Positions 1 through 43,782 of a DNA stretch of 64,000 nt are shown piece by piece. The translations under genes and the position numbers were made by a program. The first letter of the stretch is position 1. Every line of letters begins with the position of its first letter. Below the pieces are notes generated by a model. The model was not told the origin of the DNA. It worked only from the letters and a program-made list of their open reading frames with translations, and ran no database searches. Source of the DNA: Antedon mediterranea (Eukaryota; Echinodermata; Crinoidea; Comatulida; Antedonidae); contig NC_092670.1 of assembly GCF_964355755.1 (NCBI RefSeq), positions 22,567,201 to 22,631,200 of the forward strand, written 5' to 3'.

Positions 1-1092
1 TGATGTTATAGACTGCCGTCAAGTCTGTGCCGAGAATAACTATGCGTAAGTACATACAATGTTTGTACTCTATACAAGTTTTATGCACTGCTGGAGATGT
101 ATCATCCCTTAAAACCTAAAAATAGGTGAATAAAATCTAACTTTAAATGCCATTTTGTAGTTTTAATAAAAAATAAAGTTATTCATTAATTTTGCCCAAA
201 AAATAATGTATTTTATTATTCATTTGTCTACCTCTTATTGACCCTCTGTTTAAATAACACAACAGTCCAGTACACCCCAGCAGAGGGGTTGTTATTTGTC
301 AAAAGTAGGTAAACGGTCATAATCTTTGATTTAAATACCATGTTCAACCATAAATTGATTAAAAAGCTTAACTTTATACACAGACCTCACTTGGAACTTT
401 TCAAACAGTCTTTAGCTTCAATGCTCCAACTTTTTTTTAATTCTCTTCCTTTAGATATCTGACTTGCCTTATCTTACCCTTCTTTAAATTTCTGCTCAAG
501 AACCATCTTCTTGTTTAGTTACTTCCTTTTTCCTATCTTTTCTTCTGAGAGGGCCAATTTAATTTAATTTATTTTTTATTCTAAATTGTTTGTGCTTTAT
601 TTTAATCTTTATAAATTATATTTATTTTAATTTAATTATTATTGTCTCGTCATGATGTATTTCTGTGAGAGTCACTAATGATCAGCTGGATGGACCACCC
701 TCGTAAAATATTGTTGAAATAAATAATTGAGTACACATAACAAAAACTGTTCAATTATTAAGTTAGTTAGGCTTTAGGTCGTGTTGGAAATCACAACTTC
801 TGGTATTTTGTATTCACTTTTCAGTGCATAATTTTGGTTAATATTAGCCAGTAGATATTTATATTCTAAATAATGTCATATTACAGATTTACGGCATTTC
901 GTGCAGAAATGTGTTTATGTGCCAACGACTCAATTACCAACAATTATGCCGAAATGCATTCTTGCACTGAATGTCCTGCAATGTTGCACGATGAATGTCA
1001 AACGACAATCCATAATGTAGTGTTCAATAATGACGATGTTCTAACTGCTTTTAACACAATGTGGTATAAGGATGACGATAATAGGTCTACAG
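1..1092 (+). other. WSC domain exons of the polycystin-1-like gene
   Basis: Exons 1-45 and 887-1092 join in phase (GC|A codon). The translation has the WSC cysteine pattern: CRQVC, an aromatic-rich turn, MCLCA, then a CTECPAML...DEC segment. A WSC domain near the N-terminus followed by PKD repeats is the order known in vertebrate polycystin-1, so this is the natural left end of the visible gene. The frame is already open at base 1. Confidence 0.75.
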
Positions 1093-4000
1093 GTAAAGAT
1101 ACATATATTTATTTACAAATCTTCTATTTTACAAAGAGTGAGATTTCTCTTCCCTCTTTACGAACAGTCTTCAAATGGAGTCTTTTCTGAATTTTTTATT
1201 TCTATTTTTTTACCTTTGTGAAAAAAAACCCATTTTAAAGTTAACAATAACATACTATTTTTTACATACATTGTTTAACCCAAATTAACCTCCCCCCCCC
1301 CCCCCCCCACTTTCTTCTTCTTCCTCCTCCTCTTACTCCTCCTCTTATTCCTACTCCTCCCCCCCCCCCCCCAGCATACTGGCATGATCAATTCAAAGGT
1401 TTTATTGTCATTTTCTCTTTTAAAGTCAAACATTAACAGCGCATATTAAATTTAATTAATACTTAGAGGCATAGTATAAAACTAGAGAAGAAATTCATGA
1501 CAATGAACAATACATACCCAGATAAACTACAGCTAATAATTGATCATGCATATTTTATGAATTAATTAATTTTTTTTTAGCTGACGGTATAAAAGATGAA
1601 ATTCAGGGAAATGCATGGTATAACATATCTGTATACCCTACTAATTCAGCTAAAATTACCAGTTTTAGTTATGATTTCGGAGACAAACAAACACACAAAG
1701 GAACAATGAGATCTGTGAAGCATGTGTTTCTGTAAGATGTTAATAACAATAATACTATTTCATTTTTTTTTTAAACAAACATTTTTCTTAAAAAATTAAT
1801 ATTTGTTAACAAAATAATGTGCTAGTATACTAAAACATGAATAGAAATGTTTATATTATTGTATTTCTTTAATAAAGGTAGATTGATTATTAAAATGAAT
1901 AAAACAAATCAAAAATCTACTTCATTACTGTAGGTCACCTGGGCAACGGTCAATTAGATTTGAAGTGACAGATGAACTTGGTAAAACTTTGAAGACTACT
2001 GATACAATAACGGTTGTGTATGATTTACAAGAATACAATGTAACCTGTAATTCATTCATCGATCATTACAACTGTATGTTTTCCTACATAATAGGTAGTC
2101 AAAGACTTATCAATGTTGCATTTTCAGATGGAATAACAACAGATATTTATACTAGTAAGTCTATTATTGATGATAATTTAATTACTTTAAAGTATTTTTT
2201 TCAAAGTTAATTGACAAGATATGTTCCCTACTCTGATGTAATTGTACATTTTGAATTATATTTTTCTTGTTACATGAAGATAAAGTGAAAAACTGTTGGA
2301 ACTCATCCAAAATATCATAAAAAATATATCTTTAAAGGAGAGGAATTCTTTCAATTGTATTTGTACATATTTATAATAACTGGTTTAAACTGGTTCATTT
2401 CCAGTTGATTCCAAGAAACAACAGGTTATAGTGACTACAGTGGTGTACAGTTTTTAAACATTTTAATGTAAATATCTTGTAATATAGCTTCGAAGACTAT
2501 ATGTAATAAAAAACTTGAAACTTGTACTAATTTATCTGGAATTTGGTAACCGATATATACAAGTGAATTTTCTTTAGGGATTTTACTTTATGATAATCTA
2601 TTTTTGTTTCCTTATCAGGTAATGACATTGTTATGTTTGGTAGCAAGACCTTGTTAACTGACAGTCAAAGTTACACACAAACTGCACGTTACATTAAACT
2701 TAATGACCCGATTAAAGTTGATGGTAAACTGATGGGTTTTGAAGTGTACATCCAGAAAACTGGAACTATAAAATTAGAGGTAAAAATGGATGCTATATAA
2801 TAATAAGGAGATATTTTTAAAATAATGGGCAAACAATTATGTTGATGGCCGTCGGTGACACATTTTTAAACTTCAGGTAAACAAAAGAGGCCTAGTAGAG
2901 CCTAATCTATGTCACAAGAGGATCAATTTCAGAAGGAATTCAGCTTCTTTTTTAAGATAACGAGAGCTACAATTTGTGTGTTCACCCTAATTTCCTATGC
3001 ACTTATGTTTATTTCAAACTAATCAACAGTTAAGCATTCAGCCAATCACAGGACAGTATCATATCTAGTTTGTGGTGATACTTTTATTCTATGTGTTCTG
3101 ATCACAACTTATAATGATTTCTCCACACAGATTCTAAGGCCATATGTTACTGATTTCTACAAGTTTTGTGTATCATCATATTCATACGTTTCAATTGACG
3201 CCTCGTGCGATGATCAGCCGAGGATCTGGAAGAAAACTTGTTCAGAGTCTTCGCCGTTCAACTTCAGAACTGGTTTTTGCACAAACTCTACTGAAAACAT
3301 AATTTTTACATCTCCACCGGATGTTAATCTTGAGGCGGTAAAAACATTCATCTTTGAGCAGTCTTCAATCGGCCGAGCATACCTGCAAGTCAATGGCACC
3401 AAAGTTCAAAAAGGAGATTTAATTAGTTATAATTATGTAAATGATGGACAGTTAGGTGAAGAGATGTCATTAACATCGACAGAATTTATAAATACAGATA
3501 CAGAATCAAATATTGTTGAAGGGAGAAGTTTTTATCCAAGTAACAAGACGAATCATATATTCAGAGCTGTTGTAGCTAGGCAACGACAAATGCTTATATC
3601 ACACGCATGCAATCATAATAGCTCCTGTTCGTTTGATTTGTCGGTAGCAGGGTTGAACAAGGTTGTATCCGTTGTACGCATCATCGACCCTTATATTTAT
3701 GATGTCAGTCTAAGTACTGGTAAGCTTACGTAAAAGGGAACACATTCCAGTAAAAAGGAACCAAGGAGGAATATATGTTTTAACACTCTATTCCCTATTA
3801 AAACCCTATTAAGAGGACACTTTTGTGTGTCCTCCTGAAGGTGTCCCCTTGATAGATGTTATACTGTATTTCAAGCCTACGTACAGTTATTGAGTAATTA
3901 TAGGCATCTTGTAAATTCTTCATGATAATATTAAGATATGATATTTTAATGCCTTTCAGTGTCATTTGGAGATTTTGTAAACTTCACAATAGAGGATCAT

Positions 4001-7000
4001 CCAGGTATGCTTGGTTGTAATTATGAATGGAATTTTGGTAATGGTGATATAATGCAGAGCACGTCAACCAAAATAATGTATTTGTGGCACTACAGTGGAT
4101 CTTACAATGTCAGCCTACGTGCTTATAATAGAGACAGTCAGTGGACAGAATATGTAAGTTTCTTTTTTAGAGTCTGAACATGATAGAGGCCTAGTACCTT
4201 AGGCCTAAAACCAAAGTTGGTATCAATCAAGGGCTGCAGATGTAGCCTACAAAAGATTGTGTTAAAACTCATTTCATAATAGTATTCTTCATAAGTTTTT
4301 GAGAGTTATTTTTTTGATAGTATCCCAGATATTAGTACACCATGTCTCACATGGTATTAACTAATATTTAAAATGTTATTTGTAGACTTTGATAGAAATT
4401 GTACACAAAATAGCTAACTTAAGTTTTGTTGAAGAAGACCCCTCGTATTGGAACATTGTTGAAGACGAAGAATATATTGTGGATATCAACCATGCTGCGC
4501 GAGTCCAATGGTTCTCTACAGGTGACTTTAACAATTATTTTACCATAAAAAAATATATAATTCTACCCTGTTATGTTATTGGACTGTTTATTTATTTTAT
4601 TTGAACAATATTTTATGAGGGTGATCCATCCAGCATAGCTGATCATTAAGGACCCTCAAACAATACAAACAGTAAATACAAAATAAACTATAAAAATACA
4701 AAATTAGCATAGATATTAAAAATATATATATATATATAAATATACAGTAGGCCTACCAGGTAAGAAGGATAATTAAGAAATAAGATCAGAGAGAGAGAAA
4801 GAGATGTTTTTCAAAAGAGATTTAAAGGAGAAGAAATTGTAAGAGTTACGAATATTTAAAGGTAAAGAATTATAGAAAGAAGGAGCATTGAACTAAAAGA
4901 AAGATTTCAAGGTAAAGACGAGGTATAAACCTAATTAAATTCCCCACATTCCTGTATCTTGTAGATTCTGGATTTTTCACTGATAACTACACATTTTATT
5001 TCAGGCTCACATATTACTACAAATGTAACGATTGGAGAAAATGAGCCGATAACGTTAATCGTTGAACCAGGTTTAACTTTGTATAAAGACTTGTTAAACG
5101 TTGATGGAGTTTTGTTACAAAATGTACAGGTATCACACAAAGGTGAGGAAAACTATCAAAGTTAAGGAAACTGTAATATTATGAAGTGTTTGATTTGCGA
5201 AAACTACTAACCAATGACTTACTCATTTATGCGTCATTGATCATCATCGTCTGGACTTGGAAACAACCAAAACTGTTTTAAGATCTATAGCAAGGAAGTA
5301 CGCCCTAAAATCCCTGCATGCGCACATTGAATTGACATGGCCTACAATAGCTTATCGATCGTCGCAGTTTGAAAGCTCTCTATTTCCTTGTTTACCAGCC
5401 ATCATTCCAGTTGCTAGAAGTGCAGTACTTGCTAATACACATATAATAAATTAGCAGATGAATACAACAAACGTAGATGCAAAATAAAATATAAAAAAAA
5501 CGTATTATATATAAAACTGTAATGTTATATGATACATATTTTATTTTGCTATTTAGATAATTGTCGGAATATGTTGGGACTAGAATTTGAGGACAAGTTT
5601 GCAGACTCACAGTTTGTGGCATCTACATCAGTGTTGAATTCGTTTCCTCACCTTGCACGACTGAACAACATAGAGGGTGTGTGGTCTCCAGAAAATGGAG
5701 ATAATGAATGGATTCAGGTACTGTATTGTAATGTTTTAAATATATATGGATTTTTTTCTCTTTTTGAAAATCATTGTATATAGTTTTAAAAAGTGCAAAT
5801 AATTTTCTCTTTAATTTTTTCTTTTTTCATAGACCTTTTTATCTCAGAAAACAGTACATTATTTTCTTATTAATTTAATTTGATGATTTTATATATTTTT
5901 TGTTAGATAAATTTACTGAGAATGTATATTATTACTGGTATTGCCACGCAAGGTAGTTCCAATGAGTCTTGGGTTGAAAATTTCTTTGTAACATACAGCC
6001 AAAGTGGTAATGTTTGGATCAATGTAGATATGGAAAATGACACAACAAAGGTAGACATATGTACATATATCCTTGTTTTACGGTATGATTGTTTTTAACT
6101 TGTACACCTGGCGTTTATCAATGGTTTGCTTTAAGTCAAGATGGTTAAGAAATAAAATAATAAATAATATAAAATCAAATTTGTCATCTTTAAATATAAG
6201 AATATATATGTAAAATGTTGGCTTAAGTTATTTTCAAAACTGACTTAAGCAAAATCATTGACTTCATTTTGGTAAACTTAACAAGTTAAATTTTACCCCA
6301 GATAATCAAAATCATATTAAATCATTTTTTCTTTCAATGAATTCAATTACTATAACTTTTTAAAATGTTTTCTCTCTTCTTGTTGACAGAATTTGACTGG
6401 AAATTTTGATGAGGGCACTATAGTGACAAACTTTTTCAATGAGCCAGTTTATGCAATTCATGTTCGTGTAAATATTTTACCTCAAATAAGAACGCCTGCT
6501 TTGAGGTTTGATCTTCTGGGTTGTGTGTGTAAGTATTAGTATGAATTATTTACACATGTACAGTACAAGTCACTATGTAATCATCATATTACTCTAGGAA
6601 GCAGAGATTTCAAATAGTTAATTGTACAATATTTCCGGTTTTCTGACATCCATCGGATGGAGCAGGGGCCAAATGGTAAAATAAACTGATCTTAACATAA
6701 TGTCCTATCTTTTGGCATTGAAATCAAAATTTTGGATCCACCTATTTTGATGTTATATACAAATGTATACAAAATTAAAATGCTGGTGTGTATAACTTAG
6801 AATTTCCATTTGGTAAGGGTGCACAAGATGTAATTTTGTGCAGAATACTTGTCTCGTTAAATCTGTATAAAATTTGTCTTTATTAATATCCAGCGAACAA
6901 TGTATGTCTTGACGAAATGGGATTAAGAAATGGAGGTGTGACTAATAGCCAAGTGACGTCTGACATACCAAACTTCGACGTTGATTTAGTCCGTATTGGT

Positions 7001-10000
7001 CATGGTGGATCCGGGATGTGTTTTTCCATGAATGACGCCAACCCGATCAACATTGAATATGAATACCTTCACATATTCACTGGCTTCATCTTTGAGGTTG
7101 AGACTAGTAGAGGCGTTTCTTCATTGTTTAAAGTTTCTTACAGTGAAAACAAAATGCTATGGAAGGATGTTTATATTGCTGGCTCTAATACTGTAAGTAC
7201 ATAGTGGCTACAGTTTTATTGTCACACTGTATATCCGTTTTAACCTATATTTAAATACAGTGTTATGGACGGTTTGAATAAACTCTTCCTTTTCTAGTGT
7301 TATATTATTGTTACTATAGGCATGGCTTAATGTGACTGCTAATGATGCTTCTGAAAAATGGATTGTGTTTGATAAAGAGGTACATACACGGTTTATTCGC
7401 GTGGAATTCTTGAATCATGATACACTCTGCTTGCGGTTTGAACTTCTTGGTTGTAAAGGTATATCTTTTTTATTTGCTTACATACACTATAAAACTCTAT
7501 CTCTTTTTTATTCATTTATTTTAAACAATTTTAAACTTTACCTTTTAGGTTCAAGACTGTGTCGTCGAGACATTGGTGCATCAGGCATGATACCATCGGG
7601 TCAGTTCACAGCCTCTAATGAAGGTAAAAAGAGGTATGTCATGGTAGAGCTACTGAAGCATTACACAGTCACAGGAATACAGAAAATGGATGAAAGTGAC
7701 AGAAACATATTCCATGTGGAATACTCAATGGATAACAACAATTTCAAGCCCGTTCAGGACAATAATGGAGATATTGAGGTTTGTTCTTGTGGATTTTTTT
7801 AGATGTTATATGGTGGAGGCTAACTGATAGTATATTGTCAAATTATATGATTAAAGCTACTTTCACATCACGCCTGGATTCGGTCCAGTGCCCTGAGAAA
7901 GATATTGTTGAAAATGGGTTCAGGATCATTCACACCAAACTCTGCTTGTTATATTTTCCTCAGGGCGTCGGACCTAATCCAATGTGAAAACAGCTTAAGG
8001 GGAAAAAAAGACCATGTTTATTCTATTTACTTGTTAACTGCAACCATCATGCTCTCACACAGCAAAATATAACTGGTCGTTCACACAAAATCCTGGCAGC
8101 GGGTTGTGGCGAATAATGTTATTTTATTAGGTTGCTATTTTGTGCGCACGACCTTTTCAGATAAAAAGGGGCATGTTGAGAAAAGTTTGGTAATGTTTAT
8201 GATTGATACCACACTGTATTATTTTTCCCCTTAGGTATTTAAAGAGAAAGTTTTGAACAGTTTTCGTTACCCAGTAATCTGTCGTTTTTTGAGGTTGGTT
8301 TACACATATGACGGTGCTTCGCCTGTTGTCAATGAACCACAAACTTTTAAGCTAATAGGCTGCGAGAGTAAGTATGATTATGGAGATTAGATGGATAAGT
8401 TTATTAATTTTAATTGGTTTGGTGAATTTTATTGGTTCTATTTTTTATTTGTGAGTAGTTTGGTTGTTTTGTAATTGGATTAGTTAATTTGTAGAGGATT
8501 AAAAATCTATTACATATCATTTTCTGTGTTAACTACAGGGCCACAGACATGTCATGAAATGATCGAAATTGACACTACAAGAACAGCATTTTCAAGTGGT
8601 AAAAATTGGATTTCAATAAAGGACCGCTATGAACCATGGGTGATAATCGTACTGCTTGGGAGACAGGAATTATCAGGCCTTTTATTGAGTAACATGGATT
8701 CAAGTGATCAACGACAGTTTTGTGTACAACACAGTGTAGACAAAATTTCTTGGAAATTCCTTTATGAAAAAGGGGAAATCAAGGTAAACGTACTAATGAA
8801 TGTTTTTGAGTTGATGGGGAGAATATTACTCTAACCATGATTGAAATAGTTAAACTGCTCGATAAGTTGAAATTATAGATCTAAGCTTGGGTATAACAGT
8901 TCTACCTTCCACTATATATTTCAATAAGATATTTAAACAAGTTGTTGTATTTTTCAGAAATTTACATATCATAAAACACATGATGGCCTTATGTACCAAA
9001 TGTTTGATGGCATAATCATAGCCGAGTATATCAAAATAAATTTTATGGACTTTGAAGGTGCTGTGCTCTTGAAAATTGGATTACTTGTTTGCAAAGGTAC
9101 ATTTTTGTTAATATACAAAATAATTAACGTTTACTGTAAGTGGTCATAATATGTCATGAGTTAAAAGATTGACTGCTTTGGAACGGCTTTCTAGGTTGGG
9201 TCTATCGTTACTCGAAGATAGACGTAGTAGAAGTGACATGATTGAAACTTATAAGATTGTTCATGGTCTCGAAAATGTTTGTTTTTCCAACTTTTTTACC
9301 TTCCAAAATTCTGCTGGCCATTTTACACGAGGTCATCCTTTTAAGTTGTGTAAACCTCGGTTTAATACCTTTAGTAGAGCCTCTTTGATTTACGTATCAT
9401 TAACACATGGAACTCATTACCCTTCCATATTGTTTCATAACACTTAACACTTTCAAGCAAAAATATGACACACACATAAACACTATGAGAGGAGGCAGCC
9501 TCTACGAGTAAATACTCTTTGCCTCCTTATAAGGTAAGCATCTATTTTTAGGGACTGAGTTGAAAATAGAGCACTTAATCTTCTGTGCCAACAATTTGGG
9601 CACTTCATACCAAGTGGTATGAATGCTGGATATCTACAGTCTACAAATAAAAACATTTTATTTATTTTTTTGTTAGGCATCAACTTTGTTAGTTTCGAAT
9701 GTGCCCATTCAGCTAACCTTCCGCTTACAATACAGTCAGAGAATGTCGTCAGCGAATCCAACATCTCAACAAATATACAGTACGATGAGCGTATTACTGG
9801 GTTTAGAATTATGAACCAAAATCCTATTGCATGGGGAAGCAGTAAGATTCTTATTGCAACAGAAGTATTTTCAGGTGTCAATTCTAGTATTGAATTGTTT
9901 ATAGATGGAGTCAATTATACCCAAATCACAGAGACACATTATCAAGTTGAACAAACCGTTGTTTATTCCCTCACCATGGCGACTGAAATGTTTAATGAGT

Positions 10001-13000
10001 TAGATTTATTAAATGTTACTATGATACGAAGCAATGTGTTAAGTTTAGCCAAGGATTATATTCTCCTCTCAGTTGAATATAAAATTGATGACTTGAAGTT
10101 ATACGTGCCGGAATTTGCATATAGAGGTCATCCCTTTCAAATTGAATTTGATATGTCGAGAGGGTCACATGTCGTTTGTAATGTACAGCTAAATGATACC
10201 ACCAAAAAAGAATTTTCAATATATTTAATGCTTCGTAGTGATGGGGATAAAATATCTTTTACTCATCAGATCAACAGCCTAGGCGAGTATGATATTTTCC
10301 TTCATTGCTGGAATAATATCAGCGTCATGAATGTTTCTGAAACGATTTCTGTCCAGAATAATATTACGGATGAGCTACAGTTGAATTGTGATGATGTCGT
10401 TGCAATTGACTTTCAGGAACCATGGAATATCACTGTAGAATATTCATTCACTGGGATTCCTATAAACCTTCCGAATGCCGTGTTTGCTAATTACACTGTG
10501 ATTGGTCGGCTGAGCGCAAGTGAAACTATAATGAACATGGTTGGTATTGAGTATGATGAAAACCTATCTGCAAGTCATACAATTAACCTTTCAACTTATG
10601 GTACATATGATATCTCTGTTTATCTTTATAATAAAATAAGCAATGTCTTACGTACATGCACAGTTGATTTAGAAGCGGTGATTACTAGCCTTAATGTGAA
10701 CGCTGAATATTATGCTCCAGTTAAAGAATCTGTCACGTTTGACATCTCGGTGACCTGGGGCTCACGAATTCAGTATACTATTGATTTTGGTGATGATGAA
10801 AAAGTAACGAAAGAACAAACATCTGAATATAGAATTTCTGTTCCGCATTCATTTGGTGATAAAGGTGTGTTTAATGTAACAGTAAATGCGACAAATTCGA
10901 TCGGTGAAACATCAACCTTTGCCAATGTTACTGTTCAGTACCCTGTAAAAGCTTATGAATTGAAATGTCAGTATTTAAATAAATTGGGAATTAACGAAGA
11001 AGGTGAACCATCACATGTAGTTATACCAATTGATGTGTATCGTAATGACATTTTTAAAGAGCCCACAGATGCATACTTTACAATTGATTTTGACGACGGA
11101 TCTGCTCTTTGCCCTATGGAGGAAATGTGCCTGCTGGCAGATGTGTCTGAACATGGAGTGGTAGAAACATCGAAAAACACAAACAATATGTTACATGTTG
11201 TGAAAGTGAACAATGAATATTCTACTTCCAACAGTTACACTATTAATCTTACCATTTGGAATCATGTTAGCAATGTAGTGTTTCAGTGTGATATGCTGGT
11301 GTTGGAAGGTATTGAGCAGTTAAAACAAACAGTACAATATTCAGATGTATACATTGACAGTCAGAATGCCACAAACACAACTGATGAATTACTGGAGGAA
11401 GAGTATGTGGCATTAGGAAACTGGGTTGTTGTGACTACTACAATTGGTGCTGGATCGCATGTTCAATATACCTGGGATTTTGGTGATTCAACTGCTGTAA
11501 AGACAACAAATGAACATACAGAAATTCATCAGTACTCAGAGCCGGGTTCATATATAATATCAGTGAATGCATCGAACCCAGTGAGTAGTGAAGTAGCAAG
11601 CAAACAAATATATGTTCAAGAGGTTGTAACTGATTTGAGATTAACAGGATCTGATGCAGTGCTTGTGAACTCAACCGTAGATTTCATACTTGAACTGGGA
11701 AGAGTGGCTACAGATGCTTGCTATCGGATTGACTTCATAAGTGAGCTATCAGAACCAGAACGTGTACGTTTCCATGGATCACACGCAATGTGTGAAGAAA
11801 AATATGCAGATTTTCAAGATGTAGAGCCTATTGACTCTTTGCAACTTTGGTTTGATGTGAATAACGATAATGCTGATTCAACAATCAAGATTTCAAATAC
11901 ATTTTATGAGTACGGGAGATTTGAAATACAGTATGAAGGTGTAAATACAGTATCTTACGTTAACAAAACAGTGGCGCAGCTGATAACTAAATATCCATGT
12001 TATTTACCAATTGTGGATGTATCAGGCGTAAACGAATGTGGAGATACTTACACAAAATGTAATCAAGATCTTAATATTCGTCAATATGAAGCATCAAAGA
12101 GGATTAAAGTTGAGTCTGCTGTTACTGTCAACTGTTCATCTACCGATTTAACTCTTTACGAATGGAAGGGCTTTATTAAAGAGGGCAATGATGAAAATCA
12201 AATACCGGTAGATTTGTCGTCTCATACAGTCACTACTGGAAGCGGATTAGGAACACTGATTATTGAACCAAAAAAACTTACGTATGGTATTTACAGATTT
12301 GAACTGAGAGTGACAATGTTAGGTGGAGAGATCGGTGTTTATAGTGAAGATTCTGTGAATATAGAAGTAATTCCAACTAATTTATCAGTTGAGGTGGTAG
12401 GAGGGGAGTACCACACTATTTCCTGGACTAAGGGCACTTTTGATTTAGATGGTTTGACATTAACACACGATCCTGATATTGATGAACATGATAAAACTGG
12501 TATGAATTTTACGTGGTTGTGTCGAAGAGCAAGAAAGAAATTTTTGAATGAAAGCATTCATGTTGACGAACTTGAAACTTTTGAAGAATGGGATGATGAT
12601 TTTGAAGTTTTATTGAGAAATTCAACAGTAAAAGACAGAGATTTATACTATCAAGAAAATATTGAAGATGTTGGAGGATGCTTTGGCAAATTAGGAGGCT
12701 TGGATGTCCCAAAACCAGGAGGTAACATTTATTGACTAATTGTTTCGATTTCAATTTATTTAAAGATGTATTGTCCCTTTGACCAATTCCAAAAAATAAA
12801 GATTTCGAAAAAAAGAGGGTCATTTTGAAGTATCATAATAGTTATAACAAAGTTTTTGATCAAAACATATCAATTCAAGACGCTTGTTTGGCTACTCTGA
12901 ATGCATAAAACTTTCTCACGATCTGTATTAGAACACCTTCTCAACCGTATTGAGTTGTAAACAATCCTAATTAGCACCATGCATAATTAAATGCATAATT

Positions 13001-16000: not shown

Positions 16001-19000
16001 CCAGTTAGGCAAGGGTGATGATGATGTGGGTTGTTGAACTGCAATAATAAAGATTTGTACATAATTTACGGCGATTGAAAACGCTAGCTCATTATCCGTT
16101 TAAAACAAAATTATATCCAACCTCTACAGCACAGATTGAAAAAAAAAATGGATCGAATTTCTGTTATGAGTATACAGTACTTGCCTTTACGACGCCTGAG
16201 GGAATAGACACTTGTGGAACAGAGATTGGAATATTCCATTCATCGCAAATCAATACATTTGTATAAACGTATATTAAATCTATCAAAATATTATTTTTTA
16301 AAGAAAATCGGCCTGTCTTCAACATTATGATGCTGTACTCGAGCTGTTCAACCGGTTTTCAGCCATTAAAAACAATTATCGTAGGAGGAGATAGGAAAAT
16401 GCGAAGCATCCTCGTATTATTGTCTGCGGGTATTTTTCAAGACGGACATCCATTAGACAGTGTATACCACGATCGAAAAACACCCCTATTTGGGGCAAAT
16501 CGTTGAACCTAAATTCGTTTTAATTGTCAATAACTAATTATCTAACTCAATTTAATTAGTAAACAGGGTTACATCAGGTGGTTAAAATCAGTACCTAGAT
16601 TCTAACCAACTTTATATACCATCGAGTAAACATTCTAGAAATAACGCGCGATTTACCGAATTTTGCCCTTACGTAAATTTATATATAGATACATTAGTAG
16701 TACCAGACTACTACAGTTTAGTAATAACAATAATACATGATACAAAATAATATATATAAAAATACATTCACATAGCGTAAAAAAAAAACAAAAAAAAAAA
16801 ACTATACTACAGTATACTTAACTAAAAAAAAAATTCTTTATTTCGTTATAAAGTAGATATATTTAATGTAAGGTATATCATGTTAATCATTACTCTATTT
16901 ACAGTTATACAATAGTAGTACCAGACTGGTATTTAAATCTTTAACATTTTGGTACGTGAAGCCCATGCTTGTTTTATATAGTTCGATTGGCACTATATAA
17001 ATGGTGAATGAATAAATTATTATTCATCAATTAATCATTTTAATCTTCAATTCAGTCTGTTATTTCGTATAAATTAACAAAAATTAAAAAATAAGAATAC
17101 TGTATTTTACTGGGTACAATATGATTGCTCTCATCTCAGAATACATTCTATCTGGAGAGCATCTTTAAGTTATATTGACATTCTGCTAAGGTTGAGTCTA
17201 ATGCATTTACACTAAGTTCATTAAAGTCTACACAACAAGGATTCAAACAATATTGATTTTCTATAAAATTCTTAAAAACATGGACATGACACTACATTCT
17301 TCAGCAAGGTGCCCTGATTAAGTCAATGTTTAAATGTTTTTTCAACAGGTAAATTATCCTATCAAGCTGCTAATCTAACATTGAATACCAGTGCTATGTA
17401 CTGGCTTATGGAGTACGAGGTAAAGTTTGTGGTGCGTAAAGGTGATCGAAGAAAAGAGTACATTCAGATACTTAATGTTGTGGAAGGTGAACCACCTGAG
17501 ATACAAATGGCGTATGTATTAATATACTATTACACTATTCAGGAACTATACCTAGAAACTAAGTGGCAATTTTATGATAAAAAAAGATATAAGGGTCAAG
17601 AAAACTTTATCCTTAATTTCCTAATAAACTTTTGTTTATAATATATACATATATAAATTCCAAGGCAAATTATTGAAAAATGACAATACTGTGGGTATCA
17701 GTGGCTGAATCTCAATGGAGATACAAATAAAATAAGCAAAATCTAAATCAAAAGTAAAACAGCCAGAAAAATTTGCAGAGCTTTCGAACAACAGATTTTA
17801 AAAAAATGAATTTTAATGTGCAATTTAATTAATTTAAGGTGCAAATTGAATTGCAAAAAGAAGAAGACGTCAACAAATCGGTCTTCTCTAGAAACAAAGG
17901 AATTGAACAAACGTCGTGGAACTACGCTTTACTACAAGTATAAATTATATACATTTTTTTTTCATTTTTGTTGTATTGTTTTGTATATTCTGAGGTTCTT
18001 GTAATCAGTAAAATTATTTAAAGAAATTCATTTGCTTGAATATTAAAAATATAATATCATTAACATAATTATTATATTTACAAGATATTAAATAGCAAAA
18101 ATTGTAATATATATTAAAATCGATATTACCTTATTAAATGATGTTTTTTTCACAAAAGTGTTTTTTGTTTTAATTACCTGTAGGTGGGAAGTATCCTATT
18201 TAGCGAGTGGAAGCTACCAACCAATACTTGAAAGGAAAGTAAACCTCTATTCTGGAACTGGAACAAATGTTTCAAACCTCTCAATTGAACCAGGTTTATT
18301 TGAGGAGAATCAACAGATCCGTATACAATTAAGAGTATCAAGAAATGCCAATTTCGGCAATTCAGGTTTGTATTCTTTTATAAGAAAGAATGATGTAACA
18401 TTGTCATCTCTCAGCCATTTTGTTTTTTATTACATAGAATTATTCTGATTTTTTTCAGGAATATCATATATTAGTTTTGAAGTCAACGATGTACCAGTAA
18501 AAGGAACGTGTAGTGCGACTCCTACAAATGGTACAGCTACAATAACTGAATTTATTGTTAATTGTGTTAATTTTACTGATGTTGATACACCTTTGACCTA
18601 CATATATCAATATAGTACCGATGATCAAAACTGGTTTACATTTTTCAATGGTAAGTACATTCACAATGCTTGGCTTAGGCTTTTAAACAACACTGTTATT
18701 GATGTATTTTTATATACTGTTTTATTTCAATACATAAACCTATACAGAAGCTCTCATTAAACATTTATTCACTGACCCTCCTAAAACATTTGCATTTTAA
18801 GCATAATATTACACTTATAATACTTTTTTCAGAGGAGTACAGTAGCATGGACAAAACTATACATCTTCCAGCAGGTTCAGTGGCGAATAATTACATAGTT
18901 ACTATTCGCGCTAGAGTGGCTGACACTTACGGATCATTTAAGGACACATTCTTAAACATAACTGTAAGTAAAGGTGTAGTAATAGTCCATTTTCATCCCA

Positions 19001-22000
19001 ATTGGGACATTAAGAGTGAGTGATTCAACTGGTACGGTTGTTAGCCAGAAAAAAAAATCATTTTACCATTTGCAGAGTTGCAGAATTAGATATGAATAAT
19101 ACTTTCTCATTTTTTATAACATGATTAGAAAGTTGATTTTTTCTATTACTTTGGGGTTTTTAAAAAACCATATATAGTATCCGTAAAGAAATTGTAAGGA
19201 TTGTATAAAACAGGTTTTCTTTTTACAAAACCAATTATTTTTTTAAGGTTGTTCCTCTGAACTGTACTGAAGAAAATGCATTGAAAATAACTTATGGACT
19301 AGCGGATGAATTGAAGGTGTTGGCAGGAGCAGGGAAAGCAAAAGAAGTTTCAAATATTGTCTCTTCAACTGCTGAGTTCTTAAACTATTGTAGCAAACTT
19401 GGAACAAGTATGTACACTACTACAGTATTTAGTAGTTTTAACTTGGAACAGTGTTAAATTAAACCAAGTATAGTGTGTACCTTTTAGTGTTAAACGTGGA
19501 ACTTGGAGCATGTATGCACTGTGCTATTTAGTGTTCAGTTTGGAAGTATGTACTCTTTAATATTAAATGCGCATGGGCTGCGGGTCATATTTGAGTTTTG
19601 TTGTTTTCTTTCATTTTGAAAATGAAAAAAATTGAATGATTTATAGTTGCTTGTCTGTCTTGCTTCAGCTGAGTTTTTTTTTCTTTCTTATTTGTAGTAC
19701 CTGAGTCATCTAATACTTCTATTATAATAAGTCTCACTCGGGAAGATATGCTAACTACGATGGCTTCCTTGCAACCAGCGTATGATATGGGAATATTTAG
19801 ACTAATGGCATCTGCTGTTAAACATGTAACGACCTTTCCCAATGAATTAACAGACATGGCACGGGTATGTTTATCATATAATAAATACAACCTAATTTTT
19901 TACTTTATTTAAGCTTTTATAAATATATGCTATTGCAATTGCTGTATGTATTAATTTAAAGATTTTGTTGTAGAATACAAGTATACATTTGGCATCAACC
20001 TTTGCAACCACAATACAAAAAGCTGAGAGTCCATTGGCGGAAGACCTTGAAGAATCTGCAAAACTGGTATTTAGTTCTCTTGGTAAGCACACTTATCAGA
20101 CTTTTATTTTACTTAATAAAAGCTGTTACTGAAGAAAAGGTTGTTTTAGATATAACCCAGCAGATGAAATTCTAATAATAGCATTTTCATTGATAGGCCT
20201 CTGGATTGAAAAGACCCTATTGACAAGCTAAATAATTATGTGTGAATGAAAGCTGCTAGGATGCAGCACAATGCTCAACGTAATACTTGCATTATTTGGA
20301 AATGCTTCTAACACAGCATATACACATTCACTTTATGATTTGAAAATATTATTATTATTATAGGAGTACCAACTAATGCAGAAAGTGAAATTGTGGCAAG
20401 TATACCAAACTCATTTCATAGTATTAGTCTCTAGGTGTCAAAACCAAAATTCAAAACAATAAATTCCTCTCATGAGGAGTGGCTTCATTATTTTTCCTGT
20501 CTGGATGTTGGTGCAACCTGCAAGAGAGATGTTAATGGGTCACAGTGCATTTCGGCCGGCAATCATTTCGGCCGCCGGTTATGGAACGCCCAAATTCATG
20601 AAACTCCAAAAGGGACAAAATATGGCATGATCATTTCGGCCGCCAGGTATGGCGCGCCAAATTGAAATAGCCAGAAATAACTCATTAACTGTACAGTATT
20701 ACAGTGAAAAAAAATAACTTTATCAAGTCTATGGAACGCCACAGAGAATTATGGTCATTTAAACTAGAGATCAGTTGTGCAATGGGCTAAATACATTTTG
20801 TTTTTGCCGTAGGCATAGATTTAAAGTTATATTAGTTACAGTATTTTACCTCCTGAATATTTTGGTCAAAATGAATATTGATTTAATGTTTATTTTTTTA
20901 TCTATTTTACAAGTCCCGAAGATGCGTGTGCTTTGTAAAAATGTGTTTCTTTTAATATGAATCAAGTCAAGTGTTTTTGACTGACACATAAAAAAAACTT
21001 CAGCATCACCTCCTTCTTATTAAAAAAATATCATTAATATTCACTGTAGTGATGGCAATTTGCACGCTATATCGCTGCTGTTTCTGGAATTGAAGACCGC
21101 CGATTCGGCTTAATAATACAGTATTTAGGCCTAGTAAAATATTAACATTTTAACACGCATGGCGTGTCATACATATTCAAGAATAATTACAATTCTGGTG
21201 GCCAAAATTAACAATACATATTTTGTCCTTTTTGGCGTTTCATGAATTTGGCAATTCCATAACCGGCGGCTGAAATGACTGGCGGCCGAAATGATCAGAC
21301 ACCTGTTAATGTACCTATTCTGTTTTATTTTAGTCGGCAACAGCTGGAATTGAGGTTGTAACATCTATTATTGATACCATGATAGGCGTAATGGTAACTG
21401 GACAAAAAAATGTTAAAATCAACACAGACGTGATGGCAGTCACTGTTGCCAAATCTTTTACTCGAGATGAAAATGGTAAGTAAATAATTTGTTTATGAAT
21501 TTACTTAATATGTTTATTTCTTATTTTTTATTTCTTTTTTTCTTATTTATTTGCAAAGCCTAATGCATTTATATATATTGATAATTATTAACATTTTTAT
21601 GTATTTTTCAATAATTAGTAAATTATGATTTTACGGATCAGAATGACAATCAAATCACAAAATTCCCTGAAGTAGAAGAAATTATCGGAAGCGGAAATGA
21701 CAGTACAACAGAATTAGAGACCAGGGTATGTTGCCTTTTACCTTCTGTACAGATCATAAAGCCCTGTCTACATCAAATATGATGTGCCCATATATGGACA
21801 TGATGATGTCATATTACTACCATATTTGAGCATATCACTATCATATTTGGGCACATCACACTTTTTTTGTCAAACTAGCTTGGTAGTGTAGACACAGCTT
21901 TATATCACATGTTTGTGTGATCATCTTTTGTATGCTTATTTGTATTGTATTCCATGTTTATAATTGACAAAATAAATGAAATGAAACTCCTATTTCAGCA

Positions 22001-25000
22001 GAGTAGTGGAAGTGATGGTTAGACAGAAATATTATAGAGGGTTTTTTCCTACAGAAGGGCAAAATCATCATAACTAGACTATGCACTTTAGGGGCGTGTG
22101 CGTCTGGCTCTGGCTATGGGCTTGTTACACAGTGTTGTGGATGATTGTAAATAAAATGATTGTATAGTTAACAAAGAAACTACACAAATGTAGACTTGAC
22201 CATATTCCAGTCGACATTTCCATGTTTGTCTGAAACTACAAGATCAAGTATTATACATATGAAACGCCATGTGTGCCAAAATGTTTATATGTTTTTACCA
22301 GTATTAAGTCGAAATGCAGTCTGGAATCTATAGTAGACTAATATGAATGCAACTTTTGTTATTATTATATAGATTATAGTTCAAAGTAATGATCCTTTTA
22401 GCCAAGGAAATAGCACCAGCCTCCGAGGATCAGTGGTTTCAATCAACATGAAAAATGATACAGGACAACAAGTTTATGCCACATCCATGACTGAGCCGAT
22501 GGAGTTTAATATTTATAGGGGAGAAGAGCAGTTTGCAGTGACAAGTGAGAATGCCTCAAACTATCAATTTTTTGAAACTGTATCAAGTAGTTTCACGCCA
22601 GATGATTTAATGTTGAGAGGTATGTAGGATTTGCTCTATATTATTTTATTTATTCCTTTCAATGAAACATAAAAAGAAGAGAGAGGAGAGAGGATCTGTC
22701 AAAGATAACTATTGTCAAATGGCGTGTCTCTCTAACAAGTATCTATAGCTCTTTTACCCATAGGTGTACTTACTTCCAGTATACTCCTTTCTTTATGTAA
22801 TACAGTTGACTATCCACTATCAAACTCTGAAAAATGGAACTATCCCTTGAGGTTCAAATTCTTTTTGACATTTGGTATAACATTTTTTTGGAAAACTAGA
22901 CATATACACTCTAGGGTATACTGTCTTTTTCGTAAGATCCCTACATGTATAGACTCTACATATTCCATTTTCCCAATATGGACACCTCTCGAAAGGAAAA
23001 TGGAATAGTCCAGGCGCCGTAGCGGGATGTACAAACGTCTCTCACGCATGACATCGTCCTCATGTTCCTTTCAGACGTGTGATCTTGAAAGCCTTGAAAG
23101 AAACTAATTTTTTTTAAACAAAGGACACCTGGCTAGCATCAATAATTGAGAGACTTTGATGTATTTATAACCTGTAAATAATTTTAAAAAGTAAAAAAGC
23201 AAAGCAAAATATGTATATTCGACATTACACTATAAGTTTGTCTGCTAATTTTCTAATAAGCCACTTCATGTTACTATTTAATCTAATCTAATCTAATCTA
23301 ATTCACAGTCAAATTGAGAAGCATTAAATATACAGTTATATGATAATGATATCCTAATTTATTTACACTGAATGTTTAATTGTTGTATAAATTTCAGATA
23401 CAGCAAAACACACGGCTCTCTCTATCACTGTGATAAGCAGAGGGGAGAAAGATATGAAACCTGAGTATTCGTATACTTATACAATTGTAGTTTATATTAA
23501 AATTAATGCCTCACCCACTCAAGGTAAGTTGAAGACCTTCTAATCTTCTCTCACCTCGAGTAGCAATTAACTTGCTTTGTTTCAAACATTTTATAAATCT
23601 TAGCAGATAAAACTAGATTTGAATTTTAGAGTTAAAATTGAAAATGTGTGCAGAAAGAGTATGTTGTTTGGAATTTGTCTTCATTTGTGACCTTGTGGTC
23701 TATTACGTTGGTTAAAATTTGTCTAAAAAACATTTTTTCACCAAAAATTGCCTTTCTAACATAACCAAATGGCTAAGTGGAAATAAAAGTTGTCCCGCTC
23801 AATTGGCACATGTATCGGTCGTGCATTTTAGTAGGCAATTGAGTAACCCAGTTAACTTAAAATTAATTTTGGTATATATATTTGGGATATATATTCAAAT
23901 ATACTATATATTTAAGCGTAAGTAATAACTTGTACTACTGTATATTTTTAACACAATTATTCTTTTGTTTAATGTAACAGACAATCATGACTTAAACTGT
24001 ACTTTGATACAAAGTGTGACTGCAATTCTTAATGATTCTGATGTATTCAAATTTAATGAGACAGAGATGAGACACACAGGCGACACAGTCTGTTTCTTTT
24101 CAAACACTGTCATGAACAGGTACTGAATGAGCATGTTAAGGCTTAATAATTGACCCACGTATGTTGATCATTAACTAAGCCTGAAAAGGCCCTATGTTTT
24201 ATCTGTATGTTTTCAATTGTACATTGTTGCATGCAATAAATTAAAATTTTCAAAGAGATTATATAACTATACCGGTAACTCCAATGCCAGTTTGCCAAGT
24301 TCAATCTCTAGCAGTTATAGCATCTCTATGAATAATTAAAGGAAATTAATCATGAATTAATTTTTTTAGTTTAAATTATTAAATAAATAAAATCAAAATG
24401 AAAATATAGTGGTATTAAATAATAATCAATCCGATTGTTAAAATTAAATTAAATAGCTTTTATAATATAATTTAATTTGAAATATCAAACCTTAAAAGTG
24501 TACAAAAAAGGCGAAAAACTCCTGTAAAATCATGGAATCTGTAACTTGCTTCAACTCAACGTTGATTGGAAAACAGGCTTTAAGGCGGCTTAATAATTTA
24601 CTAAGGTATGTTGCCTACACACCAAACTCAGAGATCTTTGGTCATGAAGCTTAACGGGTAAATTTACTAAGCCTGAAAAGGCCCTATGTTTCATCTGTAT
24701 GTTTTAAATTTTTAAATTTTCCAAAGAGATTATATAACTATAGAGGAAACTCCAATGCTAGACAGTTCGACAAGTTCACTTTCTAGCAGGTATAGCATCT
24801 CAATGAATAATTAAAAGAAATCTAATCATGCATTATTTTTAAATTATTGAATAAATACAATAAAATTAACCATATTGTCAATTTTATATTGAAACTGTTA
24901 TTTTTTAAATTTTAATTGTAGTTTTTTGTCCAACGCATCTTCGGATATATACATAAATGTCCGACATGAACGGTTACGCAGCAAAGGAAATGACACCGTT

Positions 25001-28000
25001 CCCGATGAAGAAAATGAAGAATTTATACCAATGTACTATAATATCTCGTCGTTTACCTCTCAATGTTACTACAGAAGCTCATCAGATACAGAATGGCATT
25101 ATATAGAGTGTGAGGTATGTTACACTAAACTAATATGGTAGTGATATGAAATCATCATGTCCATATATGGGCACATCACATTTTTTCACACAAAGTTTGA
25201 TAGTGTAGACAGAGCTTTAAATATCTTTCAGAAATTGTGGATATGTTTTAATTTTTATGATAATTTCAATGATATGATAGAAGTTATTTTGCTACAAGAG
25301 TCTTGCAACAGTTATCAAAATGTGCGAAATGTTAATGGAAAATGGAGAAATTTAAAGGAAACCAAGAAACACAAAAAAAGCTAATAATTTTATTTTTTTA
25401 TACTACATACTGTTGCAGTCAAATCAAACTAAAACCATACATTATTGCAATAAAAATGTAGTTACTGCAGCAACTGCAGTAGACTAATTTTGCAATGATC
25501 CCTTATTTTAAATTTTGTACTTACAGGTTGGCAAAGATTCAACACGTGACACTACTCAATGTTTTTGTTACTATCTTGCACCGTCTGAAAGTGAAGGTCA
25601 TCAAAGGTCAAAACGAAGCATTGAAAATTATGGTCAAGAGTCGGAACAAGAAGAAAACCTTGTTACCGTCGGAGGATCGTTTTCAGTACCAATGAACTCG
25701 ATTAATTTACGCAACTCGGCATTTACAAAACTGAGTGAAAATCCAGTTGTCTTCACCTTCATGACCTGCTGTCTGTGTGCGTATATTGTTATCATTATTT
25801 GGGCGCGCAAAGAAGATAAACGAGATGTCGCAAGGGTAAGATATGAGACAAAATTGATAATGCATTTACTTTTTAGTATAATAATATCATGAGCTTTCAT
25901 GGGATATTTTAACATTGGATGATTTAATTTTTTTTTTTTAATCTGGGTCTTATACTTTGGCTGTCTTAGATCAGGTATTTTGACAGAGTTAACATTGTTG
26001 TTATTACAGGCTGGCATTACTCCAATGTCTGATAACGACCCAAGACATACGTACAAGTACGAGATCACAATATTCACCGGGGTGAGAAGACAGTCTTCTA
26101 CCACTGCCAATGTTTCCTTCATCCTTCAAGGTGAGAAAGGTGAAACAGGCATCCGTATCATCAAAGATAAGAAACGACCAATCCTTCAACGAAGCGGGAT
26201 TGATTCATTTCTGATGACTGTACAGCAGACATTAGGTACGCTGGTGCACCTTCGAATCTGGCATGATAACACTGGTCATAGTCCGCAATGGTTCTTGAGC
26301 CGTGTGTCTGTTAAGGACATTCAAACCAATAGAACGTATTACTTTATGTTGGATCGATGGCTAGCCCTAGAGGAAGATGATGGCCAGGTTAGTACAGTCA
26401 ACATTCATGAAAAACTCTTGCAAATGTGTTATTTCTTCCTACCACAGAAGAACCCTAATACCTGGAAACATGATACTTGACCCATTCATTGAGGAATTGA
26501 CTTTATATAAAGTTTTATTTCTTCTGCTTATTACTTGCATTCTTTTACCTTTATTTCAAGATTGTAATCGAACACAATGCTTATTTTTTGTCTATATTTC
26601 AGATTGAGCGTATAGTACCGACTGCAGGGCAGAGTGAACTAACAAGTTTTGGGCATTTATTTCACAGTCGGACTAGGCGAAACATTACAGATAGTCACCT
26701 TTGGGTGTCGGTTTTTATGCGTCCTCCGAAAAGCAACTTCACCAGGTGTCAAAGAACCACATGCTGTTTGTCACTTCTCTTTTGTACTATGATGGCCAAC
26801 ATTCTTTTTTATGGCATCGATATCACAGCAAATGAATCTTCTTCGTTTTCGTTTGGACCAGTTAGTTTCTCAACAGGTCAACTCGTTATTGGTATTATCA
26901 GCACATTGATGGTGTTCCCGATAAATCTGATTATCGTTCAACTATTTCGTCTTTCGCGTCCGAGACTAAAAAAAAAACGTGGTTGTTGTAAACGAAATGA
27001 CGTAGAAAAAGCAAGATTCAAGCCGCAAAGTTTCAAAACATCCAGTATTTCTTCGAAAGAGGATCTCAGATTACAACGAGATCTGTTAGAATCAAGCATC
27101 AATGGTGAAAATGTCAAAGGTGAAAGTCCATCTAGATCTGAAGTCGGTACATCTCGTGTTGAATTATATGTACCATCTAAAATGAAAGAAAGACGCAAGT
27201 CATCGTTACCACTACCTTGGTGGTGTAAATATGTTGCATGGGCATTGGCTTGGATGACGATTGGATTGGCGTTTTGGCTCACCATAGAAGTTGCTGGAGA
27301 GTTTGGATCAAAGAAGGCTGGCGAATGGGTCGTAACAATGTCTATATCACTAACTCAAGATATCTTCATCAACCAACCAATAAAGGTAACTTTTACTTTA
27401 TTCTCATTATCTCAGCTTCAGATGGGACATACAAGGTCATTTAGGCATCATGCAAAAGTGTTTACAATTAAAAATAGAAATTGAAGGTAAAATAATTAAT
27501 TAATTAAGATTAACATTACTATTAGTCTTACAAATTAAAGCATATGTGAAACCACAACAAAATGAAACTTTATTTCTATAAATATGTACTATTTGTTAAT
27601 ATTTTTGACAGGTATTGCTGTTGGCCACATTCTACTCCCTCGTAATCAAAAGTCCAGACAAAGAAGACGATGAATTAACAAATGTGCAGCTAGAGAATGA
27701 CGAAGAGTTTTTGCATGATGAGCAATTGAAGGAGGAAGACCTTGACGACCCCAGTAAGCTGGAGGAGTTCGAAAAGAAGCGAATGGCAGAAGTAGCAAGT
27801 GCACTTCCCCCAGATCAAGATGAGATTAGAGATCAAAGAGATATTAGGTCAGATTTGTTTGTTTTTTTTCTAGTTCATACACAAATTCTATAAGACTGCT
27901 TGATAATTGAAATTGTGAATTGGAAGTTAGATTTTTGCCTACCACCCTTGATTCAGATTCTGTCTGATTCTAGGACTTTTTAAAAAAAAAATCCTCTTGT

Positions 28001-34602: not shown

Positions 34603-35159
34603 TTAGATTTTTGTTGGATATGTTCCATTTTCTCTTTGTTCGTCCCATGATTCCACCTGAAATAGAATAATAAATACATTTAAGGTTTGCATGTAAATTT
34701 CATGACGCTTTTTGTCTTTAACAGACAAAGAGTTCATTATGCGGTAACTATGTACTTCAAAGTACTTTACTGTGATTCAATTCAATTCTGGTTAAAGGCA
34801 AGCAGAAACTACCAGTGTTGTCTCCGAACTGAGGGGCTGATCATAGAAGAAAGGTTGCCAGTACTCAATCTGCCTACCCTGTGCTTAGGACATGCTAAGT
34901 TATTCACATCAAAGTTAACGATAATTGGTCCATTAATCCTTTAGACTTAAGGATGTGTGCTTACCCAGCTATTAGGACATAGAGATTGGTAGACTCTCTT
35001 AAACCATTCACATGGTGCATAATCCTCCCCTTTGATTTTTTGGCACCTGTGAAAATCTACATAATTCTGCCAGCAATTCTTTGTTTGATTTTGATTGGGA
35101 AATCGTGCATCAAAAGGTGCAGTCTTGTAGTTCTTTATAGCATCCATTACATCAGCCAT
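34603..35159 (-). CDS. COX6B1: Cytochrome c oxidase subunit 6B (COX6B)
   Basis: Two coding exons, 35159-34965 and 34656-34603, join in phase 0 to give 82 aa. The protein is an intermembrane-space subunit of respiratory complex IV that packs at the dimer interface. Family signatures are [20 protein letters not shown], then the twin Cys pair [11 protein letters not shown] (CX9C) and [12 protein letters not shown] (CX10C), which form the disulfide hairpin imported by the Mia40 route. The second exon encodes [17 protein letters not shown], the standard COX6B ending. The ATG at 35159 matches the usual N-terminus ([11 protein letters not shown]). A 3' splice acceptor just upstream (about 35171) implies a noncoding first exon farther right, possibly beyond the foldback element at 35420. 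Length is slightly shorter than human COX6B1 because of a gap before the second Cys pair. Confidence 0.95.
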
Positions 35160-35419
35160 GTTGGATATCTGAAAAAAGAATTACAGTATTTGATTAATAA
35201 TAATAATATCATAATGCATTTTTATTTCAAGAAATTATTTATTTATTAATAGTTTGTATTAATTAGTTATTATTAGATTAGCCTAGTACAGTACAGTAGG
35301 CATAATAATGTATTTTATTTTATTAACAGGCTTTGTAGAGCTTATTCTATTAAATATTACCCAACTTATTTAGCCTACATATGGCCGGCCTAACTTCTCT
35401 TGTTTAGGATGACTATGAC

Positions 35420-40320: not shown

Positions 40321-41047
40321 GTAAATAATTGATAATTAAAACTGTCTTAGTGATTGAATAATGAATTGGTATAACAAATTTAAAACAACTAAACTAAATT
40401 CAAAAATCATATTAAACTACAGTAAATGTACGTAATACGCATAAACTAAATTAATGATCAAATCTGTATCATAATCATAAATTCGACTTAACCGTAAATC
40501 ACAGCTCAAAATATGCCTTACTTGGCCCATCGGAATAATCAAACAAATGAATTAGCATTAATGATAATTAATCTATAATAGTATAGCTGAGTATTACACT
40601 ACACCGAAATATACTGTATGAAGCTAAAATAGTAATACTCACTATTATCAGACTGTTTAAGACAGTACTTGGCAACAAAGAGTATTTAATTGTTGTCAAC
40701 CTTAATTGTTAATGCTGCAATCATCTGTAATTATCTAAGCTTCAGTTAATCATGTAAAAATGTGCCATGTCTAGCTAGGATCTGTGGTACTGTATAAACA
40801 CTGATTCAACCATGGAGGTTACCTCAAAGTTCCAACATAAAGTATTAGTCTAAGCCGAGACAATGCCCAACCAACTGAAGTGGATGTCGACTAACTTAAT
40901 GAATGAAAAGTCGTTTGATTCTAGGTTGATAGAAAAAAAGCAATCAGTAAATTATTTAGTGTCATATTAATTTCTTATGTTTATTAAAAATATTTATTTT
41001 TTTAATTCCTTATTAGACGCAACGACAACAACAGGAGGGCGTTCAAA

Positions 41048-43222: not shown

Positions 43223-43782
43223 CATTAGTAGTAGCAGTAGAAAATTATTTTAAAACAGTTTTTCACCACACAAAAATATTAATACATGATCAATAAACCC
43301 AGAAAAGAACCTACTATACAAAATGCATTATAAACATATTCATATTTATTGTATTGTACGTTGACATTGTTGGTAGTTTGAGATCAGGTTTGGTGAGTGG
43401 TTGAGCTTCAAAGTCTGAAAGACGTAGAACTCCGTTTCAGATTTGGTTACAAAGTTTCTTTCATATTCTAGAAATGACTTTTCAATGTAATATTTAGAGT
43501 GTATATCTAAGATATGGTACTTGTTAAATACAGTGCAATACACAACTGTACGGTAATCAATTTTACCATTTCTTTTTCTCTTTTTACTCTTTTTGCAGCT
43601 GCATTTTGCCTAATAAAGAAATGTTTTATTAACTGAATAAAAATTGTAATATGAAATTTGTATTTTGTATATTGTTCTTGGGTATGCATTTTTAAATTGT
43701 GGGCTCTTGTAAATAGATATAATAGTTTCAAAAGTACGAAGAAATATTTATGAAAAAAAAATCTAATCGAAAAAAAAAATTT

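Follow-up and report, generated by a model that had tools for sequence, protein, structure and literature searches.

Gene model and domain order

The stretch of DNA analyzed here (the window) covers 64,000 nucleotides of Antedon mediterranea at C1:22567201-22631200, C1 being the contig. It carries one long gene, named gene A, which to judge from its sequence almost certainly encodes a receptor of the polycystin-1 family (PKD1/SpREJ) with four discoidin (F5/8C) domains in its ectodomain. The gene was rebuilt from the sequence by hand and with scripts, and the in-window model consisted of 44 exons and 4,020 codons in a single frame, with a sole stop at the end. This agreed with the original prediction, a note made earlier from the same DNA, which had described one consistent reading frame over 44 exons. 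The junction of exons 27 and 28 was a choice among alternatives. The 5' end was found just upstream of the window, at C1:22565854-22567200. This interval holds three more exons as well as the beginning of window exon 1, and it adds the start codon, a stretch resembling a signal peptide and the N-terminal half of a WSC-like domain. The joined protein model had 4,226 residues, arranged as a signal-peptide-like stretch, WSC-like domain, PKD, PKD, four discoidin domains, PKD repeats, REJ, GPS/stalk, PLAT and polycystin channel. The parts on either side of the discoidin exons, with their evidence, were as follows.

1..5142, + strand: exons 1-9, rest of the WSC-like domain, PKD, an unassigned stretch and PKD (open frame, splice sites, Pfam)
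9677..12721, + strand: exon 19, about 1,015 codons that cover PKD repeats and the beginning of REJ (Pfam)
17349..24119, + strand: exons 20-32, REJ and the following stretch (REJ profile, consistent phases)
24922..25835, + strand: exons 33-34, GPS-like cysteines, altered cleavage site and first transmembrane segment (exon 34 alignment with three paralogs, hydrophobic segment)
26010..26387, + strand: exon 35, PLAT domain (PF01477, 2.6e-16)
26603..32710, + strand: exons 36-44, transmembrane part, Polycystin_dom, PKD_channel and stop (Pfam, frame)

The assignment to a PKD1/REJ-type receptor, which had also been claimed before, was borne out by Pfam matches to REJ, PKD, PLAT, Polycystin_dom and PKD_channel. 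PF00801 matched two PKD stretches before the discoidin exons (3.4e-13) and two after them (1.4e-27, exons 19-23 joined). The same joined exons matched REJ (PF02010, 5.8e-58), and the REJ profile match at C1:22579318-22579755 fell within exon 19. The channel part matched PF20519 (Polycystin_dom, 4.6e-42) and PF08016 (PKD_channel, 1.5e-50), and the PLAT domain came after a hydrophobic segment at model residues 2940-2958. A simple hydropathy scan gave 10 segments in the membrane half, the family norm being 11, and 2 more in the ectodomain that are probably spurious. With the upstream exons joined, the WSC match was weak (PF01822, E 0.014, 16 bits, under the cut-off of 27.8). Neither a C-type lectin nor an LDL-A domain was matched by Pfam (E<=1) in the 613 residues from the window start to the discoidin exons, and Pfam reported none in residues 1-372 of the full protein either; no leucine-rich repeat was reported in the scanned parts of gene A.

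An extra REJ exon at about 17839-17937 was also weighed and was ruled out by hand, since its phase does not fit. Two introns held features of their own. Intron 19 contained, by eye, two copies of a repeated stretch at about 13700-16750, perhaps remnants of mobile elements, and the intron between exons 39 and 40 contained a full-length 5S rRNA match (82.5 bits, 29402-29519, + strand).

The discoidin cassette of gene A

The original prediction had placed four diverged discoidin domains in nine exons between the PKD repeats. The nine exons were found to span exactly 5557-9096, with consistent splice sites and phases, and to encode an array of 544 residues.

5557-5717, 5907-6050 and 6390-6528, + strand: exons 10-12, domain D1 (PF00754, 4.6e-19, over the cut-off)
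6894-7192 and 7320-7458, + strand: exons 13-14, domain D2 (PF00754, 4.5e-5, 24.0 bits, under the cut-off)
7549-7778 and 8235-8367, + strand: exons 15-16, domain D3 (PF00754, 6e-8, over the cut-off; loop segment mostly missing)
8539-8783 and 8958-9096, + strand: exons 17-18, domain D4 (PF00754, 4.2e-6, 27.3 bits, under the cut-off; loop segment shortened)

Against the curated cut-off of PF00754 (28.2 bits), the profile check suggested in the original prediction succeeded for D1 and D3 and failed for D2 and D4 taken singly, yet the latter two stood far above shuffled sequence when a profile from the paralogs was used. With a profile built from the 12 discoidin domains of three paralogs (genes B, C and D), gene A being excluded, D1 to D4 of gene A scored 110.9, 65.4, 45.8 and 54.3 bits. 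Shuffled A domains, 1000 in all (250 per domain), reached 8.5 bits at best with the same profile. When a profile of all 16 domains of the four genes was used, 85 distinct PDB sequences were matched at E<=0.01 (best 4.7e-58), and the 60 that were listed included factor V-like proteins, factor VIII, neuropilins, lactadherin and retinoschisin.

All nine exons were bounded by AG/GT splice sites, and their phases ran 1-0, 0-0, 0-1 and then 1-0/0-1 three times. Each discoidin domain is thus a phase 1-1 module with internal phase-0 introns, and a phase 1-1 unit is the form expected of a shuffled module. The domains differed in the loop segment, which lies between two strands, one bearing the Q-x-T-A-S-like motif and the other W-x-V, and occupies columns 22-61 of the alignment. 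The ligand spikes of factors V and VIII are formed by this segment of the discoidin domain. Its length in gene A was 30 residues in D1, 28 in D2, 8 in D3 and 16 in D4. Among the paralogs it was short in the fourth domain of gene B (B_D4, 10 residues), in D_D2 (5) and in D_D4 (13), and it measured 33-36 residues in B_D1 to B_D3. Since the segment is kept in D1 and D2 of gene A and reduced in D3 and D4, D1 and perhaps D2 appear to be the better candidates for binding. Identity between A_D1 and the other 15 domains was 18-42%.

A cluster of four genes with the same arrangement

The genome searched comprised 354 Mb in 18 contigs and gave 28 REJ matches, which were assigned to 12 loci by manual reading of the profile search. 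Four of these loci formed a paralog cluster on C1 within 0.42 Mb, which extends beyond the window and hence beyond what had been predicted. Gene B lies just upstream of gene A on the + strand, and genes C and D lie about 0.3 Mb away on the - strand. In all four genes, discoidin exons for four domains were located just upstream of a homologous PKD exon of about 3 kb, and channel exons followed.

Two tests of the cassette are independent, namely the PF00754 scan of the 16 domains and the leave-one-gene-out profiles. PF00754 was matched at E<=0.1 by 16 of the 16 cluster domains, with individual E-values shown for the first member only. When each gene was scored with a profile of the three remaining genes, its domains reached 45.8-110.9 bits, and shuffled sequences scored at most 8.5. 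The 16-domain profile includes the cluster's own domains, and its matches within the cluster arise partly by construction. Before the 16-domain alignment, domain ends were adjusted by hand (B_D3 was lengthened; B_D4, C_D1, C_D2 and others were trimmed). The first exon of C_D1 matched weakly (E 0.01). The splice sites of the paralogs were chosen with the phases imposed, so the phases common to the paralogs are not independent evidence.

Around the other eight REJ loci, the cluster profile found nothing convincing in the 10 kb upstream, a distance that may not reach the N-terminal part of every gene; the two best hits there reached 11.3 bits (E 0.021) and 10.7 bits (E 0.033). Elsewhere the genome is rich in discoidin exons, with at least 163 matches. 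Because the cassette is repeated in four genes, the finding is better supported than it would be from the window alone.

The altered GPS site

The second departure from the usual polycystin-1 plan lies outside 5557-9096, in the stalk. In the exon 34 alignment, the stalks of genes C and D keep the triad HL^T (...YHL^TSFGGGFSV and ...NHL^TSFGGGISV). The triad position reads NL-V in gene A (codons 25656-25664) and DV-A in gene B. Ahead of it, the alignment has a gap of 31 columns that is filled by 28 residues in A and in B.

25566..25649, + strand: 28-residue insert of gene A, between the conserved GPS cysteine and the HL^T position (alignment)

By eye the insert is acidic, and it contains the basic motif RSKR-S at 25605-25619. 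Gene B, whose exon 34 homolog lies on C1 near 22554.2 kb, has RRRR-S in the same alignment columns. The pattern R-x-(K/R)-R occurs once in the 3,146 residues of the A ectodomain, in the insert, and in shuffled A ectodomains it fell within a 34-residue segment in 0.32% of 5,000 trials. No other such motif was found in 2,345 further ectodomain residues of gene B, a sum over tblastn pieces that may overlap.

Pfam gave no GPS match in exons 33-34 of gene A at E<=0.5. At least 150 matches to PF01825 were obtained in the genome, 150 of 180 candidates being scored, and among those listed none fell at genes A to D, C and D with their HL^T included; matches were listed near three other REJ loci (C1:1.63 Mb, C1:4.31 Mb and C10:5.01 Mb). 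As PF01825 misses even C and D, the GPS assignment in the four genes rests on the exon 34 alignment and not on Pfam. Two ways of recovering a triad in gene A were rejected: an alternative placing (YYL-A directly after CFC) has no HL^T/S either, and an unusually short intron inside exon 34 would, by eye, not restore one.

Other members of the family resemble gene A in this respect. According to passages of PMC9672506, the human PKD1-family members PKD1L1 and PKDREJ are without HL^T/S and are not cleaved at the GPS; unlike in gene A, no insert with a basic motif is described for them in those passages. With PKD1L1 and PKDREJ being without the triad, an HL^T/S GPS is not a defining feature of the family. 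A precedent for exchanging the cleavage mechanism comes from SEA domains, in which the same loop is cleaved autoproteolytically in certain proteins and by furin in others, Mucin-1, Notch-2 and GPR126 being the examples in the part of PMC6954182 consulted. The comparison is limited in that these are SEA and not GAIN/GPS domains, and GPR126 also has GAIN autoproteolysis.

Relationships among the four genes

Identity among the paralogs was 47-59% over exons 35-43 versus 28-34% over six ectodomain exons, the latter being those of the 29 exons 5-33 that were found in all four genes. The tree of exons 35-43 kept the grouping (A,B),(C,D), and both alternatives were rejected by the approximately unbiased (AU) test (p 9.4e-6 and 2.6e-4), which was run with 5,000 replicates where the program recommends at least 10,000. 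By identity in exons 34-41, A was mostly nearest C. A mosaic history or gene conversion was considered and set aside, because the likelihood keeps (A,B),(C,D) for exon 35, exons 36-41 and exons 42-43.

In the tree of the 16 discoidin domains, the labels D1 to D4 clustered, needing 6 changes versus a mean of 9.5 in shuffled labels, and a value as low was reached in 0 of 200 shuffles. These results suggested that the four-fold cassette most likely predates the split of the four genes. Several observations speak against this history or against the grouping. None of the 13 inner branches of the domain tree was well supported, the D1 label needed 4 changes, which is no improvement on shuffled labels, and the program warned that two long branches, A_D4 and B_D4, meet. 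The compared ectodomain exons also preferred (A,D),(B,C) over (A,B),(C,D), by a difference that was not significant.

Comparison with known proteins

Gene A shares with human PKD1 the PKD repeats, REJ, PLAT and the polycystin channel part, together with a WSC-like N-terminal stretch that is weak in gene A. It differs in adding four discoidin domains, in having lost HL^T, and in having no Pfam leucine-rich repeat, C-type lectin or LDL-A in the parts scanned. Human PKDREJ and PKD1L1 are not known to carry discoidin domains. Factors V and VIII and the neuropilins belong to the same discoidin fold family and were among the best PDB profile matches; they differ in the host protein, and D3 and D4 of gene A are without much of the loop segment.

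The original prediction had proposed that the cassette took over from the lectin/LDL-A segment. In line with it, no Pfam lectin or LDL-A domain precedes the cassette; a takeover of the role is conjecture. The carbohydrate or lipid recognition that it also proposed is a putative function, and D3 and D4 of gene A have lost much of the loop segment. In the sea urchin survey, as far as its consulted parts go, C-type lectin domains occur only in SpREJ1-3 and WSC in SpREJ6, 7 and 10 (PMC1934368). A WSC-PKD form without a lectin would therefore be an equally good starting point. These three proteins resemble gene A as REJ-family members with WSC; SpREJ6 and SpREJ7 have PKD repeats, and SpREJ6 has 11 transmembrane segments (same passages of PMC1934368). 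They differ in that this survey, which covers ten SpREJ proteins, mentions C-type lectin, EGF, SUEL, PKD and WSC in its protein-features section and no discoidin, a word absent from its main text.

A literature search for polycystin or PKD1 with discoidin (F5 8 type C, FA58C) and REJ found no such protein, the printed form 'F5/8' not being searchable, and nothing was found that links polycystin-1, furin and GPS cleavage. Two figure legends came close. That of PMC3269628 has PLAT, PKD_channel and F5/8C/discoidin among the abbreviations of one domain-architecture figure, and that of PMC3133641 describes PLAT-like and discoidin-like domains in malaria crystalloid proteins and names no polycystin channel. 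As the former legend may cover one protein with all three domains, it is likely, and not proven, that a discoidin-bearing polycystin-1 family is new to the literature.

Other features of the window

Downstream of gene A, the window contained the following features.

34947-35180, - strand: reading frame with a match to cytochrome oxidase subunit VIb (PF02297, 2.1e-20)
41006-42091, + strand: MFS_2 transporter-like reading frame (PF13347, 1.4e-16)
43782-43863, - strand: tRNA match (60.5 bits)
59092-61711, - strand: serine/threonine kinase-like exons (by eye)
60483-61250: 21-base tandem array between the kinase-like exons
62143-64000: 132-base tandem repeat in 14 copies, up to the window end

Proposed function and alternative explanations

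Collectively, we read the gene A product as a polycystin-1-family adhesion receptor with an unusual ectodomain, possibly cut by a furin-type protease instead of by itself, and we assign this overall reading, drawn from sequence comparison, a probability of about 0.6. The cassette would act as an adhesive module in which D1 (and D2) makes the main contact and D3 and D4 serve mostly as a spacer. It could grip matrix, the cell coat or another cell, and the PKD string and the REJ/GAIN stalk would relay the pull or the binding to the polycystin membrane part, as has been proposed for polycystin-1. For this adhesive, force-passing role we see even odds. In the A/B branch, autoproteolysis of the stalk would be replaced by furin-type protease cleavage in a loop at the GPS point, or lost without replacement. 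We tentatively suggest that the GPS was broken there and a loop with a furin-type site put in its place, so that an outside protease may make a two-chain polycystin, in a swap like that of the SEA domains, and we hold this to be the less probable outcome.

The anatomy itself would be at fault if the discoidin exons belonged to another gene or had been wrongly joined to the PKD1 gene by an assembly error. This is very improbable, as the exons lie on the same strand, are phase-compatible and recur in the same arrangement in four diverged paralogs, which makes a chimeric gene model very unlikely. A different view of the cassette is that it is mainly structural, a stack of beta-sandwiches that lengthens or stiffens the ectodomain with little ligand binding left. 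The short loop segments of A_D3, A_D4, B_D4, D_D2 and D_D4 and the low identity of the other 15 domains to A_D1 are consistent with a spacer. Against it, the segment still has 30 residues in A_D1, which also matches Pfam strongly, and 33-36 in B_D1 to B_D3, and we regard a mere spacer as possible but rather unlikely. Less likely still is a gamete or fertilization receptor akin to the receptor for egg jelly, in which sperm-egg recognition would have driven the divergence of the ectodomain. Such a receptor would fit with membership of the REJ family and with the compared ectodomain exons being less similar than the membrane half, but divergence between paralogs is no test of positive selection.

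The cleavage part of the proposal has its closest competitor in simple decay of the GPS in A and B, by which the receptor would stay one chain and the basic motif would be due to chance or serve another use. Neither H nor T remains at the triad in A or in B, and uncleaved relatives exist (passages of PMC9672506). Such decay would leave unexplained why the sole motif of the A ectodomain sits in the insert, why B has RRRR in the same columns, and why the other B pieces hold no further one; we consider it evenly balanced. Several considerations reduce the weight of our own reading. D2 and D4 fall singly under the Pfam cut-off, the basic motif was a post hoc observation, and its presence in both A and B may reflect common descent, so the two sites are not independent. 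Since relatives without HL^T/S are known to be uncleaved, plain loss with no protease cutting is a live alternative. Between plain loss of cleavage and replacement by a protease site in A and B, plain loss is somewhat favored by what the sequences suggest.

Implications

Polycystin-1 is a disease receptor of the kidney-disease type, and its ligands and the meaning of its GPS cut are still under study. The present cluster offers a ready comparison, in that its four genes follow one ectodomain plan and the triad is intact in two of them and broken in the other two, which carry a protease-type motif. Such a comparison would ask whether the cut of a polycystin matters in itself, or how it is made. 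The results also suggest that the polycystin ectodomain is more exchangeable than the vertebrate set of domains would indicate.

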